DNA of 64,000 nt, taken from positions 1-64,000 of the IMG/VR virus record IMGVR_UViG_3300045970_000027; one strand, written 5' to 3'. The notes beneath the pieces are model-generated. The model was not told where the DNA came from. It did no database searches and saw nothing but the letters and a program-made list of their open reading frames with translations. This DNA comes from a virus. The translations under genes and the position numbers were made by a program. Below are positions 4,845 to 57,352 of the stretch, one piece after another. Within the stretch, counting starts at the first letter, position 1. Every line of letters begins with the position of its first letter.

Positions 4845-4857
4845 TTCACAGTGTGAA
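4845..4857. promoter_or_regulatory. 13-bp palindrome TTCACAGTGTGAA
   Basis: Perfect member of the palindrome family, in the gene-free divergent region, 0.86 kb before the first rightward gene. Confidence 0.75.
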
Positions 4858-8811: not shown

Positions 8812-8824
8812 TTCACACTGTGAA
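8812..8824. promoter_or_regulatory. 13-bp palindrome TTCACACTGTGAA
   Basis: Intergenic; the SD sequence AAAGGAAA starts within its last bases and ATG 8834 follows. Confidence 0.85.
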
Positions 8825-10856: not shown

Positions 10857-12302
10857 ATGTCATTCGCCCTCTTCATCGAGACCGAGGCCACCCCACAGGG
10901 CAAGCCGCAGTACCTCGTCTTCCCGGCCAAGCCGGACGAGGCCGTCATCTTCTCCCGCATCACCGATGGCGGCAAGAAGGGCCTCAACGTCTGGAGGCCT
11001 GCCACCGCTATCAGCGAGACCCTCACGCTCACCCGTGAGCCGGTAGCCGTCGTCGTGACGAGCGCTGACGTCCTCCAGTACACGGTGACCGGCTTCCCGA
11101 AGGGGACGGCCACCAAGGCGCTCGCCGCCTTCCCGAGGTCACCCGAGACCACGGTCACGGTCGCCGATCTCGGTGACATCGTCCAGCGGGTGGCGACCTC
11201 CGACCTCACCCTGAACGCGTACATCCTCGACGGTCGCCGCGTGCGTCCGGTCGTCTTCGCGACCACACCGACACCGACCCCGTCCGGTGTCGTCACCCCT
11301 GCTGGTGCTGCCACCCCGGCCCCGCCCATCGAGGTCATCGTGCAGGACCCCGAGACGAAGGTCACCACGATCACCGTGCAGGCGACCCAGCCGACGCACG
11401 TCGTCCGGATGGCGCTCGTCCCCGACATCAAGGAGGCCAAGCGGTACATCCACCGCAAGGTCTCCGGTGTCTCGGACTTCTCGATCCTCGACTACGCCCG
11501 AGCGAACGGCCTCAACTGCCTCCTCTACGGACCGACTGGCTCTGCCAAGACGACCGTCGCGCGAGCGTTCGCGGCCAAGAACAACATGCCCGTCTTCATG
11601 GTCTCGGGGACGGTCTCACTTGAGGCATCGGCTCTCTTCGGTCGGTACATCCCCGACGGTGTCGGCGGCTTCGTCTGGCAGGACGGTGGCGTCACCGAAC
11701 TCGCCCGCAATGGTGGGATGCTGATTCTGGATGAGGTCAACTTCATCCCCAGCAAGATCGCCACGGTCCTCTTCAGCCTTCTGGCCGAGACCACCCGCTC
11801 GCTGACCCTGCTCGACCATAAGGGCGAGACCATCATGGCTCACCCCGATCTCATGATCGTCGCGACGATGAACCCGAACTACGTCGGGACGCAGGAGATG
11901 AACCAAGCCTTCCGCAACCGCTTCTCGTTGCAGATGGCGTGGGGCTACGACGACAAGGTCGAGAAGGTCCTCGTCCCCTTCAAGGCCCTCCGCGAACTCG
12001 CTGCCCAACTCCGTGAGTCGGAGGCAAAGCAGGAGATCATGACGCCGATCCCGACCAACGCGCTCATGGACTTCATCGAGATCAGCAAGGGTCTCGGCCT
12101 CGACTTCGCCATCAGCAACTTCCTCGCGAGGTTCGCTGATGACGAGATCAAGAAGGTCACCCTCGTCGTGGACGCACACCGCCTCAACATCGAGTCCGAC
12201 CTCTCCAAGGTCGCCCTCCCCGATGTCGAGGTCGATGAGGAAGAGGCAGCCGTCACGGTCGACCCCCTGCGCTCGCTGGCAGACATCGACCTCTCCCTCT
12301 AG
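10857..12302 (+). CDS. MoxR-type AAA+ ATPase
   Basis: 481 codons. An N-terminal region of about 190 residues with a Pro/Thr/Ala linker precedes the AAA+ core. Walker A is GPTGSAKTT (about residue 225), Walker B LILDEVN (about 289) and a sensor motif ATMNPNYVG (about 339), the layout of MoxR/CbbQ ATPases. Family members work with VWA-domain proteins as chaperones that activate or remodel target proteins; such a partner lies directly downstream. The two genes probably share a promoter. A hairpin containing a 13-bp palindrome follows. The N-terminal extension is unusual for the family and may choose the target. Confidence 0.85.
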   Translation: MSFALFIETEATPQGKPQYLVFPAKPDEAVIFSRITDGGKKGLNVWRPATAISETLTLTREPVAVVVTSADVLQYTVTGFPKGTATKALAAFPRSPETTVTVADLGDIVQRVATSDLTLNAYILDGRRVRPVVFATTPTPTPSGVVTPAGAATPAPPIEVIVQDPETKVTTITVQATQPTHVVRMALVPDIKEAKRYIHRKVSGVSDFSILDYARANGLNCLLYGPTGSAKTTVARAFAAKNNMPVFMVSGTVSLEASALFGRYIPDGVGGFVWQDGGVTELARNGGMLILDEVNFIPSKIATVLFSLLAETTRSLTLLDHKGETIMAHPDLMIVATMNPNYVGTQEMNQAFRNRFSLQMAWGYDDKVEKVLVPFKALRELAAQLRESEAKQEIMTPIPTNALMDFIEISKGLGLDFAISNFLARFADDEIKKVTLVVDAHRLNIESDLSKVALPDVEVDEEEAAVTVDPLRSLADIDLSL

Positions 12303-12311
12303 CACGACCGG

Positions 12312-12347
12312 GGGCGTTCACAGTGTGAAAGCCGTGAGCGCCCCCGC
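12312..12347 (+). terminator. Hairpin enclosing a palindrome between MoxR and VWA genes
   Basis: GGGGGCGTTCAC pairs with GTGAGCGCCCCC (one G-U) around a short loop; no U-run. It may cut transcription between the two genes or control the second. Confidence 0.45.
12317..12329. promoter_or_regulatory. 13-bp palindrome TTCACAGTGTGAA
   Basis: Embedded in the 5' arm and loop of the intergenic hairpin, 46 bp before ATG 12375. Confidence 0.75.
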
Positions 12348-12374
12348 CACAAACTCCTGACAGGAAGGCACACC

Positions 12375-14366
12375 ATGACTCAGTACGCCCCAATGCACAA
12401 CAGCCACTGGAAGGCTGGCAAGCAGTCGGAGGAGGAGATCCTCACCAAGCAGCAGCAGATCCGCGAGCGGCTCCTCTCAGTGACGGGGATCTACCAAGGT
12501 GCCGACCGCATCCTGACCGGCGAGAGGCTGCAGGTATGCCTGCAGGACGCCCCCGGCTCCCCGGCCGCATGGACTGACGGGACGACGATCTTCTTCAACA
12601 CGTCGGTCATCGAGAGTGTCGACGCCAACTCGATCCCCCGCATGCACGGGATGAACTTCCATGAGTTGGCCCACGTCCTCTACTCCCCCCGCAAGGGGAC
12701 CTCGCTCGTCTTCTGGATCATGGACAACGGCTACAAGCGTGCGGCCAACGTCCTTGAGGACCAGCGGATCGAGACCCTGCTCACCACCCGCTACCCGAGC
12801 ACGTCACCTTGGCTTCAGGCGACCGTGCTTCGGTGGGTACTGGTCGGTGGCGTAACCGATACCGGCTACCTCTGGGTGCGTGGACGCAAGTACCTCGACG
12901 GTCGCGTGCGTGGCGCTCTCCGCGCTGCCTTCGCCCGTCAGGATCTCCTCCCCGAGGTCGACGCCATCGTGGACGAGTACCGCACTCTCGCCTTCCCGGC
13001 CGACTACGAGAAGGCCAAGCCCCTCATCGAGCGCTACGCCGAGATCCTCCGCGAGGTCAACCCGCCTCAGAACGAAGACGGCCCCAGCGGTTGTGAGGGT
13101 CGCCCCGTCGACATCGACAAGGGACGCCCGAAGGGGCAGACCGAGCAGAAGCAGACCCGCGACAAGGCGAAGGATGGTGAGGACGAGGTCGAGCCTCAGC
13201 CGAAGCCTGAGTCGAAGGATGAGGACGCCGACGAGGCTGACGAGTCCGAAGGTCAAGGCGACGAGCAGGGCGACGAGTCCGATGAGGGCGACGAGTCCGA
13301 GGGTCAGGGTCAGGGCGACGCCGAGGGCGACGAGGCAGGAGAGGCTGGCGAGCCCAGCGACTCCGGCGAGTCTGACTCAGAGTCTGGCAAGGGTGAGCAG
13401 TCTGGCAAGGGCCAGAAGGGTCAGTCCGAGTCGGCCGACGCCAACGATGCCGAGCCTTCGGGTAACGCTGCTGGCAACGGGGCTGGCTCCAAGGAGAACA
13501 TCCTCAGGAACATCTGCGAGGACGTCCTCGATGAGATCCTCAACAGCGACGTCGTCAAGGAAGACATCCGGCAGACCCAGCGCACCCTGCGTGGGCTGAC
13601 CGGCTCCGACATCCTTGAGCGTGCGTCGTGGACTCCGCAGGAGCCGAACGTCGAGTTCGGTCTCAAGTTCGGGGAACTCTTCCGCTCCCTGAGCCGCCTC
13701 CTGCAGCAGGCCGATCCCGGCTGGCACGACCGTCAGGCGTCCGGCCGGATCAACGTCGACCGCTTCACCCGTGAGAAGGATTACGGGTCGGCGTTCGATA
13801 CGTGGGACGACGGTGTCCATGAGGCGTCCTCACTTGAGGTCGTCATTGCGGTTGACGAGTCGGGTTCGATGAACTCAGTTCGCAACCAGTCGATCTCGGC
13901 GATGTGGGTTCTCAAGCGCGCACTCGACAAGATCGGTGCGTCGGCGACCGTCCTCACGTTCGATGACTCCTCTCGCATCCTCTACCACCGGACCGAGCGG
14001 GCGACGACCGACGTGCGGTACTCGTTCCACGCTGGTGGGACGAACCCGGTCGACGCCTTCTCGCAGGCCGCTCGCATCTTCGCTGGCTCCGACAAGGCCC
14101 AGAAGGTGCTGATCGTCTTCACCGATGGTGAGTGGTACGCCGACTCCGATGAGGACGGCGTGTCGAGCGAGGAGTACATAGCGCGGCTCAACAGCGCTGG
14201 CGTCATCACCGCTCTCGGCTTCATCAAGTCGGGTGGCTACGGGAACTACGGGTCCAACAACAGCCACGGTGTGCAGATGCACCAGTCGGTGACTGTGGAC
14301 GACCTCGTCCCCTTCGTCAGCGGGATCGTCACCGAGTCGATCCGGCGCACGATGCGTCGTCGCTAG
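12375..14366 (+). CDS. VWA-domain protein with HELAH metalloprotease-like motif
   Basis: 663 codons from ATG 12375 with ACAGGAAGG upstream. Near residue 95 is MNFHELAHVL, an HExxH zinc motif. Residues about 250-370 are a long acidic Glu/Asp/Ser/Gly linker. The C-terminal third is a VWA domain with the MIDAS motif DESGSMNS (about residue 494) and a later FTDGEW. The arrangement (metal-site domain, acidic linker, VWA) resembles CobT-like partners of MoxR ATPases. Together with the ATPase upstream it forms a two-gene system. Target and peptidase activity are unknown. A perfect terminator hairpin follows. Confidence 0.8.
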   Translation: MTQYAPMHNSHWKAGKQSEEEILTKQQQIRERLLSVTGIYQGADRILTGERLQVCLQDAPGSPAAWTDGTTIFFNTSVIESVDANSIPRMHGMNFHELAHVLYSPRKGTSLVFWIMDNGYKRAANVLEDQRIETLLTTRYPSTSPWLQATVLRWVLVGGVTDTGYLWVRGRKYLDGRVRGALRAAFARQDLLPEVDAIVDEYRTLAFPADYEKAKPLIERYAEILREVNPPQNEDGPSGCEGRPVDIDKGRPKGQTEQKQTRDKAKDGEDEVEPQPKPESKDEDADEADESEGQGDEQGDESDEGDESEGQGQGDAEGDEAGEAGEPSDSGESDSESGKGEQSGKGQKGQSESADANDAEPSGNAAGNGAGSKENILRNICEDVLDEILNSDVVKEDIRQTQRTLRGLTGSDILERASWTPQEPNVEFGLKFGELFRSLSRLLQQADPGWHDRQASGRINVDRFTREKDYGSAFDTWDDGVHEASSLEVVIAVDESGSMNSVRNQSISAMWVLKRALDKIGASATVLTFDDSSRILYHRTERATTDVRYSFHAGGTNPVDAFSQAARIFAGSDKAQKVLIVFTDGEWYADSDEDGVSSEEYIARLNSAGVITALGFIKSGGYGNYGSNNSHGVQMHQSVTVDDLVPFVSGIVTESIRRTMRRR

Positions 14367-14372
14367 CAGTCA

Positions 14373-14398
14373 GGGGGTGCGTCAACCGGCGCACCCCC
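14373..14398 (+). terminator. Terminator hairpin after VWA gene
   Basis: GGGGGTGCG pairs perfectly with CGCACCCCC over an 8-nt loop; a 13-bp palindrome follows six bases later. Confidence 0.6.
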
Positions 14399-14403
14399 AA
14401 CCC

Positions 14404-14416
14404 TTCACAGTGTGAA
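14404..14416. promoter_or_regulatory. 13-bp palindrome TTCACAGTGTGAA
   Basis: Between a terminator hairpin and ATG 14426; AAAGGAA begins in its last bases. Confidence 0.85.
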
Positions 14417-14425
14417 AGGAATGTC

Positions 14426-14716: not shown

Positions 14717-14729
14717 TTCACACTGTGAA
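14717..14729. promoter_or_regulatory. 13-bp palindrome TTCACACTGTGAA
   Basis: Follows a hairpin-forming stretch (14660-14700) and precedes GAGAGGGAG and GTG 14748. Confidence 0.8.
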
Positions 14730-18923: not shown

Positions 18924-18983
<60 letters not shown>

Positions 18984-19100
18984 CAACCAACCCATACCCA
19001 ATGGCGTTCCACCCGGTCGGAGGCACCTTCCGGTGTCTACGGCTGGACAACGAGTCTCGCCACCATGGTGACGAACCCACGATAATAGGAGTGAAGTCAC

Positions 19101-20234
19101 ATGGTCTACACAGCAGCACGTAACGGTCGCTACACCGCGTACTACCTCGACGCCCTAGGTCGTCGTCGGTCTGCCGGTACGTTCGACACGGAGGGTGAGG
19201 CCCTCATCAGGGCAGCCGATGCCGAACGCAACCCCGGCACTCCTACCCACGGTGTGGCCAGCCAGAGGTACGCCGACTACATCGAGGCGTGGTTCCTGAC
19301 CGACTCCGTCCTCCCGGTCACGATGAACGGGTATGAGACCCACCTGAGGAAGCACGTCCTCCCCCTCATCGGGCACATGCCGGTCGGGGCGATCACCATT
19401 CACACTGTGAAAGGGGCTCTGGCTGACATCCGTAGTAAGGGGGCCAGTTCTCATACGGTGGCTCAATGCAAGGCGGCCATCGGCTCGTCATTCAAGCCTC
19501 TCGTCCCTACCGTCGTACTGGCCAACCCGACCCACGGCATCAAGATCCCGATCCCGCCGTCGAAGCCGTTCGACCTCGTTGACGAGGAGACGTTCGGTGC
19601 CATCCTCGCCAACCTCCCTACTCAGGGTTCCCGCCTCTTCGCCCTCTTCCTCGTCGCTACCGGCACACGGTTCGGGGAGGCGTCCGAGGTCCGCGTCCGC
19701 GACTTCAACTTCCGGACGAACGAGGTGGCCATCGTCCGTCGTGCGTCACAGGTCGGCTCTCGTCGGAACCGGGGCTCCCGCTACGCGGTGGTCGAGGGGA
19801 CGAAGGGTGGCATCTCCCGTGGCCGCTACCTCCCCGTCCCAGCCGAGGTCGCCACCATGATCGAGGACTGGGTCCGAGGTCTATCTGCCGACTCCCTCGT
19901 CTTCCCGAAGGACCGTGTCCTGTCGAACGCCCGTGCGAGGCGGTCTGCCACAAACGTGACCGGCCACCTCCCGAACGATAGGTGGAGGAAGGTCTGGAGG
20001 AAGGCCATCGAGGCTGCCGGTCTCGACTGGTACCCGAGGACGCACGACCTACGGCATGCCTACGCGACCAATCTGGTTGCGGAAGGTGTGAGCCTCCCCG
20101 AGACGAAGGACCTACTTGGCCACGCCAACATCATCACGACCATGAAGTACCAGCACGCAGTCGACCGCCAACGGAGCAAGGCCAGCAAGGCCGTCTCCGA
20201 CTTCATCCGAAAGGCAAACCATGGCACCCCGTAA
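19101..20234 (+). CDS. int: Tyrosine integrase
   Basis: 377 codons from ATG 19101 with AGGAGTG upstream. The N-terminal part resembles an arm-binding domain, a SAM-like core-binding domain follows, and the catalytic domain has Arg in TGTRFGE (about 190), HDLRHAY (about 315), LLGHAN (about 341) and the nucleophile in MKYQHA (about 351), i.e. the R-H-R-H-Y set. Length is normal for actinophage integrases. attP lies just upstream. A palindrome occurs inside the gene at 19399-19411. Confidence 0.95.
   Translation: MVYTAARNGRYTAYYLDALGRRRSAGTFDTEGEALIRAADAERNPGTPTHGVASQRYADYIEAWFLTDSVLPVTMNGYETHLRKHVLPLIGHMPVGAITIHTVKGALADIRSKGASSHTVAQCKAAIGSSFKPLVPTVVLANPTHGIKIPIPPSKPFDLVDEETFGAILANLPTQGSRLFALFLVATGTRFGEASEVRVRDFNFRTNEVAIVRRASQVGSRRNRGSRYAVVEGTKGGISRGRYLPVPAEVATMIEDWVRGLSADSLVFPKDRVLSNARARRSATNVTGHLPNDRWRKVWRKAIEAAGLDWYPRTHDLRHAYATNLVAEGVSLPETKDLLGHANIITTMKYQHAVDRQRSKASKAVSDFIRKANHGTP
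19399..19411. promoter_or_regulatory. 13-bp palindrome TTCACACTGTGAA inside int
   Basis: Encodes IHTVK in the core-binding part of the integrase; intragenic site. Confidence 0.75.
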
Positions 20235-21429: not shown

Positions 21430-23367
21430 CTACTCCTTGATCAGGTCTACGACCTCACACCCATCAGCGCTGCAGGCCAGCGTCTGGTTCCCGACCGTCC
21501 CGTCCACCGTCTCGTAGAACCCGAGGTCTGCCCAACGGATCTCCTTCGGGAAGGCGGTCTTCGCCTTCGCGTACTGCTCGATGTCGATGGGCTGGTATGG
21601 AGCCTGAGCGTACGTATGGTCGCTGAACGGGAGGAACGAGATGCCGGTCACCTTGTCGAAGTTGCGGTAGACCCACGATGCAACGTCCAGCCACTCGTCA
21701 TCCCTGACGTTGACCGTCACGCTGACCGAGTGGTCGGCCCAGAACTCACGGTAGACCAGCCAGAGTGCCAGATGGTCGAGCGCGGAGACCTCGTCTCTCG
21801 TCACTGCTCCCTTCGGTGCTGCAACTGGGAATGAGAAGACCATCGTGTCGTCAGGCTTCATGACGTCAGGCTCGCAGGGGACTCCCGACTCCTTCATCAA
21901 CTGGGTGATCGGGTCGGTAGTCGATCCGCGAACCGTGCGGGTGTAGTACTCGCTATGCCACGGGTGGATACCCGAGGATACCCCCGTCAACTGGCTGACC
22001 GTCCCGCTCGGCTTGACCGTCGTCACTGCGACTGACGGGTTGATGCCGACCTTGACCGACTCCTTCTGGTTCACCTTCTGGGCCAACTTGCGGAGTTCGG
22101 TCAGGCGATGTGGTAGCCGGACGTCGTTCGGGTTGTTCATCATCTTGTTCCCGTAGATCCCGGTCAGGCTCACACCGAGGAGACGCTCCTCCTCCGCATT
22201 CTCCTTCCAGTCGTCACGGATGCCGTGGAAGTCAGTCAGAGTAGACTGCCACGTTCCCAGAATGGCGGCGATCCTCACCTTCCGTCTCAGGTCGGAGAGA
22301 CTGTCCTCACCCCGTATAACGACTTCCGTTAGATTGCAGACCCCCATATCGCGGAGGGTGATCTCAGCGCACGGGTTCGTACCCTCGATCTTGGATCCGT
22401 CGCGTCCGATCTTGTCTGCTGCCGCCCGCGCGCCAGCCAGATTGAAGATGCCGCGCTCCCCCGACTGCGACTCGATGAGGTTGCGCCACTCGCGCAGGAA
22501 CTGCGGCATGCTCGGCCGCTCGACGTACGTAGCCGAGTTGTTAGCCAGAGCGCGCTCGCCGTGGTTCTCCCACCAGTTTCCTGACTTAGCCTTCGCCATC
22601 TCAAAGTCGTTGAGGTCGGAGAGGCTGATCAAGGCAGACCGACGCACGCCACCCGAGACGACGATGTCGCCGACCTTGCACATCAGGTCGTGGCACTCGA
22701 TGGGAGAGAGTCGGCGACCCTTCGCCTTCTTGAACGTATCCACCGTGAACCGGAACAGTTGGTCGAGAGGACCGGGGCCAGAGGCTCGGCCTCCGAACGT
22801 CTTGAGGCGTGCCCCCTTCGGACGGATGAGGCCGAGATCCCATGTCATCTCATTGCCTTGGTATAGGTTCGCCAGCAAGGCAGCGTAAGCGGACGCCCAT
22901 CCCTCCTTGCTGTCATCCACGATGATGCAGCCACCGGGTGCCCAGTTCTCAGGGATGATCGGCAACTGCTCGGTGTGACGGCGAGCGACGGAGAAGCCGA
23001 CTCCGGTCCCGTGGGTCAGGATGAGGAGGGCCTCGCTGAACGCGTGCAGGTCGTTGACGGCGATGAAGGAGCAGTTGTACGCCGCGATGTGGTTGCGGGT
23101 GAGCGCGGGACCGGCCGTCATCAGGGCGCGCATGCTGGGCATGACTTCCAGATTCAGGATCGCGTCCTCGACCTCACAGAAGACCGAGTCGTTCGCGTCG
23201 TACCCGTAGTTCTCGACCAGATGCCACCGCATGAAGTCGATGTAGCGGGCGACCGTCTCCGACCACGTCTCGCGGCGGTTGAGGTCTTCACGCCAGCGGG
23301 CGTAGCGACTGAGCGCAATGAAGTTGGAGTACGGGTTGGACAGGGAGCCAGAAGGGTCAAGTGTCAT
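21430..23367 (-). CDS. nrdJ: Adenosylcobalamin-dependent (class II) ribonucleotide reductase
   Basis: 645 codons from ATG 23367 with GAGGTAAGG upstream. The ten-stranded-barrel family is shown by EGTNPCAEITL with the DMGVCNLTE follow-up, and by PSGTVSQLTG. The C-terminal CSADGC (about residues 632-637) is the redox Cys pair that reduces the active site. No class I Tyr/metal subunit or class III glycyl motif is present, so the monomeric B12-dependent type is indicated. It converts ribonucleoside triphosphates to deoxy forms for phage DNA synthesis. No cobalamin riboswitch is visible upstream. Confidence 0.9.
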   Translation of the reverse strand: MTLDPSGSLSNPYSNFIALSRYARWREDLNRRETWSETVARYIDFMRWHLVENYGYDANDSVFCEVEDAILNLEVMPSMRALMTAGPALTRNHIAAYNCSFIAVNDLHAFSEALLILTHGTGVGFSVARRHTEQLPIIPENWAPGGCIIVDDSKEGWASAYAALLANLYQGNEMTWDLGLIRPKGARLKTFGGRASGPGPLDQLFRFTVDTFKKAKGRRLSPIECHDLMCKVGDIVVSGGVRRSALISLSDLNDFEMAKAKSGNWWENHGERALANNSATYVERPSMPQFLREWRNLIESQSGERGIFNLAGARAAADKIGRDGSKIEGTNPCAEITLRDMGVCNLTEVVIRGEDSLSDLRRKVRIAAILGTWQSTLTDFHGIRDDWKENAEEERLLGVSLTGIYGNKMMNNPNDVRLPHRLTELRKLAQKVNQKESVKVGINPSVAVTTVKPSGTVSQLTGVSSGIHPWHSEYYTRTVRGSTTDPITQLMKESGVPCEPDVMKPDDTMVFSFPVAAPKGAVTRDEVSALDHLALWLVYREFWADHSVSVTVNVRDDEWLDVASWVYRNFDKVTGISFLPFSDHTYAQAPYQPIDIEQYAKAKTAFPKEIRWADLGFYETVDGTVGNQTLACSADGCEVVDLIKE

Positions 23368-23691: not shown

Positions 23692-24293
23692 GATGTCTCT
23701 TCCGGAGCCCTTACAGTAGACGGATTGGGGCGTGGAGTAAAGCCGGACAGGGAAGAAGTCTTCTCCAAGTAGTTGGCAAGTGCTCGGAGAGTGGCTGGAT
23801 CGTCCTTGGCACACCCGAGTGCTACGTTGCAGGACCGGCACAACAGCCCCCGTACGCACTTGCCGCACGACTTCTGGCCGGGGCAGCAGGCGTGGTCGTG
23901 GTCGATGTGGCACGAATCGTTGATCGGTGTGTGACAGGTGGCGCACTGGTGGTTCTGGTCAGCCAGCATCTGGTCGAAGTCCTCTCTCGACAGGTGGTAC
24001 TTGCTGAATCGGAGGGCCTCCCCGTACGACCGGTACTTGGCCTTGGAGTACTTCCGTGTCGATGTGAAGTGGGTGCCCCCGCTGTTGAGTGCCTTGCGGC
24101 TGTCTGGGTGGAAGCCTCGACCGTACTTGGCGACGTGCTCTCTGACAGCATCGTTGCGTTCACGGTGTGAACACTTCTTGCAGACTTCCTTCGACCAGAG
24201 GTCGTCAAACTTGGACTCCAACAGGGCCAGTCCGCAGGACTGACACGTTCGACGCGCCAGAGTCACTATGAACAACTCCACACCGTCGCTCAC
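23688..24293 (-). CDS. Endonuclease VII-like HNH nuclease
   Basis: 201 codons from GTG 24293 (overlaps upstream stop). N-terminal Cys pairs (CQSC, CKKC) form a zinc ribbon. The C-terminal half has CATCHT, CHIDHDHACC and CRSCNVALG, the His-Me finger with zinc-binding cysteines of recombination endonuclease VII. The T4 enzyme resolves branched DNA before packaging. A palindrome at 24159-24171 is inside the gene, encoding SHRER. Confidence 0.8.
   Translation of the reverse strand: MSDGVELFIVTLARRTCQSCGLALLESKFDDLWSKEVCKKCSHRERNDAVREHVAKYGRGFHPDSRKALNSGGTHFTSTRKYSKAKYRSYGEALRFSKYHLSREDFDQMLADQNHQCATCHTPINDSCHIDHDHACCPGQKSCGKCVRGLLCRSCNVALGCAKDDPATLRALANYLEKTSSLSGFTPRPNPSTVRAPEETS
24159..24171. 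promoter_or_regulatory. 13-bp palindrome TTCACGGTGTGAA, intragenic
   Basis: Inside the endonuclease VII-like gene. Confidence 0.7.
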
Positions 24294-25816
24294 TTGTCGT
24301 CTCCTAGGAACTGCTGGATGACCGTCGTGGACTCAATCTGCGGAATCTGAGCCTCCTGCTCCTTGAGGTTGGCGACCCGATCACCGAAGATCGCGCTCAG
24401 TACGCCAGCACTCCCCGACCTCTCCATCGTGATCTTCATGATGTCCTTGTTCTCTTCCAACTTCTTGAGTGATTCGACCATCTTGAAGAGCCGATCCATC
24501 TCTTGACCGACGTTCGGGTCTGGGTATCCACCATTCAGTTCTTCACCAAAACGAGCGAAAGCGACCCTAGAACCCTGCATTTCGATAAGTGCTTGGAGGA
24601 GAGAGGCCAACTGCTCCCTAGTCTGGATGGAGACAGGTAACTTGAACGCGCAGGCCGAGTTGGCCTTGAAGGCAGGACAGTTGGCGGCTACGAAGCATGT
24701 ATTGCACTGCCGGAACGACGCCTCTGAGGATGTGATAAAGGGTGCGTAGCCAACGACATCTCGGCCATCCTCGTCCTTTACAACTACCTCCCTAGCCTCG
24801 ACCCCAAGGACCGGAAGATAGGCCGTCTCCGAGGCTGTGCGAGGCTCGGGGACCCTGCTGACGTTCCTACTGTCGGGGTCCCTATGACCAACACCCGCGA
24901 CCTCGGATCCGCTTTGGCCGCTCATACCCCCCATCCCTGTGAACAACATCTCCGACAGGTCTGAGTTGTCATCCGGCTGGCCACCACCCTCGATCACGCG
25001 GAACGGGCGGGTGGTCGGCTTCTTCTTGTCCATGTCGATCTCCAGTTGCTGGTACGACCAAATGGCGAGGCGGGTGACCTCCTTGTTGTCGTCGGCCATG
25101 ATCGCCTCGTAGTCGAGACCGGCCTGCTCGATGACCGCCTTGTAGCGGGGGCGAGCCTGTTCCTTCATCTTCGCCGGGTAGCGAACGAGACGCGTTCCGT
25201 CCCAGACGATGGTCTCCCCACGCCGCATGCCGCTCTGCCAAGAACCGGTAGCAGCCGTCGTCAGCGGGCTCTGGCTGAGTGACTCTGGTGACGCGATGCC
25301 GATCCCATGCCACGACGTCCCCAGCCTCGCTGTCGCACTCCGCATGTGGCCGCTGATCTGGTGGCTCGGGGTGAGGAGGGCATCGAAGTTCGGGACGGCG
25401 ATCTCGGCGTACTCCTCGGTCAGTTCGACCAGATCGCGGAAGCCTAGGTCGGGACGCCAGATAGGCCAGAACCTCTCCTCCAACTCCAACCAGAACGGGC
25501 GCTGCTGGCGAACGAAGTCGGGGTCGATGTCAGGGCCGTTGAACTCGACCGCAGCAGCAATGTCATCCATGTTGCTGATGACGAAGTCTTGGTAGTCGGC
25601 TGCGAAGGTCTCATGGTCGTCCTTCACCTCCGTGATGCCGGGGTGGACGACAATCAGACTGTTCTCTGGGAAGTAGTCTGAGAAGGAGAACTTCTTGGTC
25701 TTCGGGAAGCCGCGTGCTACGGCTCGCGAGTACGAGAAGCCGAACGTGGTCACGCCCATATCGACCAGCAACTTCTTGTTAGACCCGACCTCCGCGCCGA
25801 GCCAGACTAGTTTCAT
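24290..25816 (-). CDS. Unknown two-domain protein; N-terminus possibly TGT/DpdA-like, C-terminus Cys cluster
   Basis: 508 codons from ATG 25816. The first 270 residues resemble phage tRNA-guanine-transglycosylase-like proteins in pattern (SWQSGMRRGETIVWDGTRL), which would imply a base exchange in DNA; this is a weak impression. After a Gly/Ser linker the last 170 residues hold CNTCFVAANCPAFKANSAC, four cysteines suited to a metal or Fe-S cluster, and a long helix. No 7-deazaguanine synthesis genes are seen in the window. Neighbours are an HAD-like and a nucleotidyltransferase-like gene. Confidence 0.5.
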   Translation of the reverse strand: MKLVWLGAEVGSNKKLLVDMGVTTFGFSYSRAVARGFPKTKKFSFSDYFPENSLIVVHPGITEVKDDHETFAADYQDFVISNMDDIAAAVEFNGPDIDPDFVRQQRPFWLELEERFWPIWRPDLGFRDLVELTEEYAEIAVPNFDALLTPSHQISGHMRSATARLGTSWHGIGIASPESLSQSPLTTAATGSWQSGMRRGETIVWDGTRLVRYPAKMKEQARPRYKAVIEQAGLDYEAIMADDNKEVTRLAIWSYQQLEIDMDKKKPTTRPFRVIEGGGQPDDNSDLSEMLFTGMGGMSGQSGSEVAGVGHRDPDSRNVSRVPEPRTASETAYLPVLGVEAREVVVKDEDGRDVVGYAPFITSSEASFRQCNTCFVAANCPAFKANSACAFKLPVSIQTREQLASLLQALIEMQGSRVAFARFGEELNGGYPDPNVGQEMDRLFKMVESLKKLEENKDIMKITMERSGSAGVLSAIFGDRVANLKEQEAQIPQIESTTVIQQFLGDDK

Positions 25817-57339: not shown

Positions 57340-57352
57340 TTCACAGTGTGAA
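57340..57352. promoter_or_regulatory. 13-bp palindrome TTCACAGTGTGAA in tail operon
   Basis: Intergenic, 47 bp before the tail-fibre start; on the reverse strand a possible -10 TAGATA lies downstream. Only site of the family in the late block. Confidence 0.75.

Follow-up and report, generated by a model that had tools for sequence, protein, structure and literature searches.

Among pairs that combine an AAA+ motor with a VWA adaptor, NorQ-NorD serves nitric oxide reductase and CbbQ-CbbO serves rubisco. Neither of the two is known to carry an HExxH peptidase. In viruses, a MoxR AAA+ gene beside a gene for a vWA protein with an N-terminal metallopeptidase domain has been described in the group 2.2 jumbo phages (Iyer et al. 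2021, PMC7824862). For these tailed phages, a role in virion assembly and peptidolytic processing was proposed, with the tail-development chaperones of the Acidianus two-tailed virus as the analogue (PMC7824862). The pair is also known as 'cobST' in tailed viruses, where cobalamin synthesis and hijacking of the host CobN were proposed and the 'peptidase' annotation in cyanophages was deemed mistaken (Liu et al. 2021, PMC8651126). This 'cobST' is likewise a two-gene module of homologous proteins in phages and archaeal viruses, and its haloarchaeal and cyanophage members carry HExxH. Its function label derives from cellular CobS/CobT and appears in databases as 'CobT-like' (GenBank) and 'porphyrin biosynthesis' (PHROG 249). 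In addition, the same AAA-vWA neighbourhood was noted by the authors of Hardycor1 (PMC7911831), and a cyanophage MoxR was assigned to the CGN subfamily (PMC9964418). A family that is widespread in phages, archaeal viruses, and plasmids carries two incompatible annotations, cobalamin synthesis and chaperone-protease. The preliminary description of the locus analyzed here saw no clear known role for such a phage pair, which is right experimentally, but the pair had already been published with proposed roles (PMC7824862, PMC8651126).

The locus lies in the IMG/VR virus record IMGVR_UViG_3300045970_000027 (84,305 bases), of which we analyzed positions 1 to 64,000, referred to as the window. The gene for a MoxR/NorQ/CbbQ-like AAA+ ATPase of 481 aa (10857-12302, plus strand) is followed on the same strand by that of a 663-aa protein with an HExxH-linker-VWA layout (12375-14366), recognized from its open reading frame, Pfam, and an AlphaFold model. 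Both reading frames and the domains expected of a motor and its VWA partner were thereby confirmed. The genes are 72 bp apart; most relatives have a narrower gap (-7 to 16 bp). As expected of a pair of the jumbo-phage kind, the genes are adjacent on the same strand, the ATPase residues are intact, the VWA protein has an N-terminal HExxH domain of consistent fold that would bind zinc, and its MIDAS is complete. The likeness is one of architecture; the record of 84 kb is not that of a jumbo phage, and its ATPase is extended by a further N-terminal domain. The closest deposited pairs are those of the Gordonia phages DalanDe, Gray, GMA6, and relatives and of the Brevibacterium phage Cantare, which share the gene order, intact HExxH and MIDAS motifs, and 40-47% (ATPase) and 30-34% (VWA protein) identity. 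The window pair is thus a known phage module that is widespread in viruses and not a new system.

The label 'phage' given in the preliminary description was borne out by genes for a tail sheath, a baseplate wedge, an N4-gp56-type capsid, a DNA polymerase, a DnaB-like helicase, and an integrase beside a tRNA-Pro. Given these structural, replication, and integrase/tRNA-Pro genes, the phage is likely temperate and its tail likely contractile. The tRNA-Pro gene (18924-18994) adjoins the phage integrase gene (19101-20234), which suggests a temperate phage, and this neighbourhood may be an attachment site. In the window, the plus-strand arm carries the pair, on the side opposite to the genes for tail and capsid and 40-50 kb away from the polymerase and helicase genes. 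Further along, positions 24290-25816 on the minus strand match a PHROG annotated as 'queuine tRNA-ribosyltransferase', and a family of about 490 aa is similarly placed in 70 of 92 related loci. A known anti-phage defence system was considered and rejected, as PADLOC returned no match for the VWA protein and weak matches only for the AAA protein.

The ATPase matches Pfam AAA_5 (E=2.6e-24). In its AAA+ core (about residues 186-450), Walker A (G225PTGSAKT232), Walker B (E293), sensor (N339), and arginine (R355) residues are all intact. G225, K231, T232, E293, N339, and R355 are invariant across 46 relatives. Multi-domain midasin aside, NorQ and CbbQ are the top solved sequence matches (70 and 65 bits), with CobS far behind (22 bits), and they are also the top fold matches in a structure search (E 1.7e-16). 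The core is preceded by a confidently predicted N-terminal domain (about residues 1-135) and a linker predicted with low confidence (residues 135-177). The domain belongs to no Pfam family and is common to many virus relatives; its description as a long unique N-terminus did not hold, since at least 45 IMG/VR relatives align across this part. The 185-residue N-terminal part is missing from the cultured Gordonia and Brevibacterium relatives. A WGR-like identity of this domain was discarded, as there was no Pfam match and just a weak DUF7572 hit in one relative (E 0.023).

The VWA protein carries HELAH at residues 96-100 (codons at 12660-12674) on the helix formed by residues 87-103 of its N-terminal domain, and H96, E97, and H100 are invariant across 46 relatives. 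According to the AlphaFold model, which is of high confidence except for the linker, this domain consists of a small sheet, the HELAH-bearing helix, and a later helix (residues 121-139). The latter bears LEDQRIE (residues 127-133), of which E128 and D129 (12756-12761) are invariant in the 46 sequences; E128 is a candidate third zinc ligand. The zinc-protease site is probably active. A structure search with the model gave no independent fold match for the zincin domain because the VWA matches dominated the search. Residues 255-370 (13137-13484) form a low-complexity linker rich in D, E, G, and S. The preliminary description called it a 120-residue acidic linker; in the window protein this part has 34% D+E and is mostly predicted to be disordered, but the acidity is not conserved: net acidity per residue ranges from about 0 to 0.44 among relatives, which rules out an acidic linker as a functional signature. 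The VWA domain itself matches PF00092 (E=3.6e-5, above its cut-off), and the top fold matches of the model are NorD and the MIDAS domain of midasin. Its MIDAS, reported earlier as intact, is indeed complete, with D494, S496, and S498 of DESGS (residues 494-498, 13854-13868) as well as T556 and D584 invariant in all 46 sequences.

In order to assess how far pair and motif are conserved, we counted partners in loci fetched by the ATPase alone (74 loci with 60 distinct partners). The counts were restricted to this set because LEDQRIE and HE had served as search patterns for the set obtained by VWA alignment, which is therefore biased. A search of viral contigs with single-protein patterns found no close relatives, and alignments were required. 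When the pair was sought in other phages, as had been suggested, 68 of the 74 virus loci had a same-strand VWA partner no more than 300 bp from the ATPase gene, typically at -7 to 16 bp. Each of the six loci without a partner ends at most 1.9 kb from the ATPase gene. HExxH is present in 60/60 distinct partners and MIDAS DxSxS in 59/60. An E[DE]xR[AI]E-type motif follows HExxH in all 60, 46 of them detected by the coded pattern and the other 14 reading E[DE]xRAE. Among 19 deposited virus relatives, the window counted, 18 have HExxH; they include viruses of Gordonia, Brevibacterium, cyanobacteria, Rhizobium, Ochrobactrum, and haloarchaea, and the motif is still there in deposited relatives at 15-20% identity. 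A lack of conservation of HELAH in relatives, named in the preliminary description as grounds for giving up its reading, was not what we found. Although a five-residue motif may arise by chance in a single protein, its retention in every partner argues against chance in the family.

The pair is nearly absent from cells: 84,980 prokaryote genomes yielded two related loci, compared to 158 related stretches in viral contigs. Searching plasmids with the window VWA protein yielded nothing, while CobT-like matches were present in 994 plasmid records. HExxH is present in the plasmid versions of the pair from E. coli, Aeromonas, and Pararhizobium. It is lost in the CobT-like protein of an Acinetobacter baumannii plasmid (DQEVAK), which adjoins a MoxR ATPase (locus L186:4001-5923), and the VWA open reading frame of HHTV-2 is without the HExxH domain. 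The Microbacterium phages Zooman (L025:4728-9149) and Pumpernickel (L017:4680-9407) have a related AAA-ATPase followed by proteins with neither an HExxH nor a MIDAS motif, which in Zooman are annotated as rIIA-like and rIIB-like.

In the limited number of genomes examined, the structural gene block does not include the pair, which often neighbours replication genes. In Gordonia and Brevibacterium phages, it is followed downstream by genes for a ssDNA-binding protein and/or DnaE. A Rhizobium phage and plasmids of Acinetobacter, Pararhizobium, and E. coli have dnaE or a sigma factor gene close to it, and in T4-like phages the genes for the clamp and its loader are nearby.

Overall, the reading we favour, with a probability of about 0.48, is that of a protein remodeller driven by ATP and guided by its MIDAS, to which a zinc peptidase is attached and whose genes belong to the non-structural part of the genome. 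The two genes would make one machine. Its ATPase, with NorQ and CbbQ as the closest folds, would assemble into a hexameric ring of the MoxR type, onto which the VWA domain would dock in the manner of NorD, CbbO, or the MIDAS domain of midasin. The MIDAS metal would grip an acidic residue of the client, the ATPase would pull or remodel it, and the zincin-type N-terminal domain, tethered by the flexible linker, might cut it. The likeliest client would be a host or phage protein of the takeover or replication stage rather than a capsid part, because the pair lies outside the structural block and often near replication genes; this is an argument from gene order in a limited number of genomes, and in the window itself the distance to the polymerase and helicase genes speaks against it. 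Direct support for the reading comes from the gene pairing, the conserved ATPase, HExxH, and MIDAS residues, and the predicted folds; zinc binding, protease activity, docking, and the timing of the pair are what we infer. The anatomy and the conservation of HExxH best back the earlier proposal, a pair that remodels proteins and perhaps also cleaves them, with cleavage itself the conjectural part.

According to another explanation, the pair is a virion assembly chaperone-protease that assembles and processes structural proteins. This is the published proposal for the same architecture in the group 2.2 jumbo phages (PMC7824862), and in a virus structure library ORF892 of the two-tailed virus matched our VWA model (E 3e-7). 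However, the pair belongs to a non-structural, often replication-side module away from the head and tail genes in the genomes examined, which makes a role in virion assembly less likely, and we consider it possible but unlikely.

We regard as distinctly improbable that the pair is a viral CobST that forms a cobaltochelatase with the host CobN and raises the cobalamin supply, for example for a B12-dependent ribonucleotide reductase of the phage. The proposal has been published for tailed viruses (PMC8651126), and CobT is truly related to part of the family, with matches to Pfam CobT in 1/19 and to CobT_C in 2/19 members. The window phage also has a gene for a class II ribonucleotide reductase of the adenosylcobalamin type (21430-23367, minus strand; best model TIGR02505), as have 27 of the 28 large IMG/VR contigs examined when the window's record is included. 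A 676-aa family, by sequence class II reductase, occurs in 77 of 92 non-redundant loci, about 10-13 genes downstream of the pair on the other strand. Yet this co-occurrence reflects shared descent and is not obligatory: all five Gordonia and Brevibacterium phages tested have the pair but no class II reductase. The reductase is present in 985 phage records of Mycobacterium and Streptomyces, two genera that can account for at most two records among the ATPase matches. Missing from five phages with the pair and present in hundreds without it, the reductase is ruled out as proof of a cobalamin role. CobN was found in none of the 28 viral records, although a host could supply it.

The proteins themselves also differ from cellular CobS-CobT, with which they share the combination of AAA+ and VWA partners. 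HExxH is missing in the CobT of Sinorhizobium, Cereibacter, and Pandoraea but kept in the phages; Sinorhizobium CobT has VEQARVE, a degenerate remnant of the second motif (LEDQRIE in the window). The phage and plasmid members closer to CobT (Rhizobium phage, Pararhizobium, E. coli, and Aeromonas) have HExxH. No match to PF06213 (CobT) was obtained in the record, and CobT_C scored 14.6 bits against a cut-off of 21. The window ATPase is closer to NorQ and CbbQ than to CobS, as given above, and in a tree of 32 ATPase sequences (midpoint root, with long branches for HCTV-16 and LP-114) cellular CobS clusters with sequences of Rhizobium-phage and plasmid origin (support 96/93), whereas the window falls into a separate clade of 13 (support 96/99). 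With the CobS clade being separate, the tree places the window pair outside CobST by membership, within a wider family that includes both. A label of 'cobalamin biosynthesis' for it appears weakly based, because the three CobT lack HExxH and the window ATPase is outside the CobS clade. HExxH, kept in viral members and missing in three cellular CobT, provides a simple handle for deciding function, and this contrast could correct the common label 'auxiliary metabolic gene'. What this study adds is a conservation count in an unbiased set of partners, a comparison to cellular CobT, the finding of a separate clade, and that of the near absence in prokaryote genomes.

Very doubtful in our view is a pure remodelling chaperone, in which the zincin domain binds the client or a metal without cutting and HExxH is structural, because H, E, H, and E128/D129 are strictly kept at about 30% identity, as catalysis predicts, even if the pair persists without HExxH in cellular CobT and in the Acinetobacter plasmid version. 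These losses, together with HHTV-2, suggest that catalysis is dispensable in some versions. A broader generalization would be that viruses are the main vehicle of another kind of protease powered by ATP, in which the zinc peptidase sits on a MIDAS adaptor and is driven by a MoxR ring, and that cellular cobaltochelatase CobT is a derivative with a dead protease; we put this forward tentatively and think it rather unlikely.

Regarding regulation, the preliminary description assigned the pair its own promoter and a terminator behind it. A sigma-70 scan, which covers promoters of the sigma-70 type, revealed none upstream. Right behind the VWA gene there is indeed a strong GC hairpin (14373-14398, plus strand; MFE of 14366-14425 -30.1 kcal/mol, z -4.9), but it has no T-run and is no canonical U-tract terminator. 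An equally strong GC hairpin, also without a T-run, lies between the genes (12309-12346, plus strand; MFE -29.4 kcal/mol, z -4.8) and includes TTCACAGTGTGAA at 12317-12329. The hairpin behind the pair may be a U-less terminator. The same 13-bp palindrome, TTCACAGTGTGAA, recurs at 14404-14416 before the next ATG and is one of 19 window sites that match TTCACAnTGTGAA with at most two mismatches, compared to 1.4 expected. Examples are 4845-4857, 8812-8824, 12317-12329, 14404-14416, 14717-14729, and 57340-57352. Several copies directly precede a ribosome-binding site and start codon, and one lies behind each gene of the pair; the palindrome resembles an operator or stoperator used throughout the genome.
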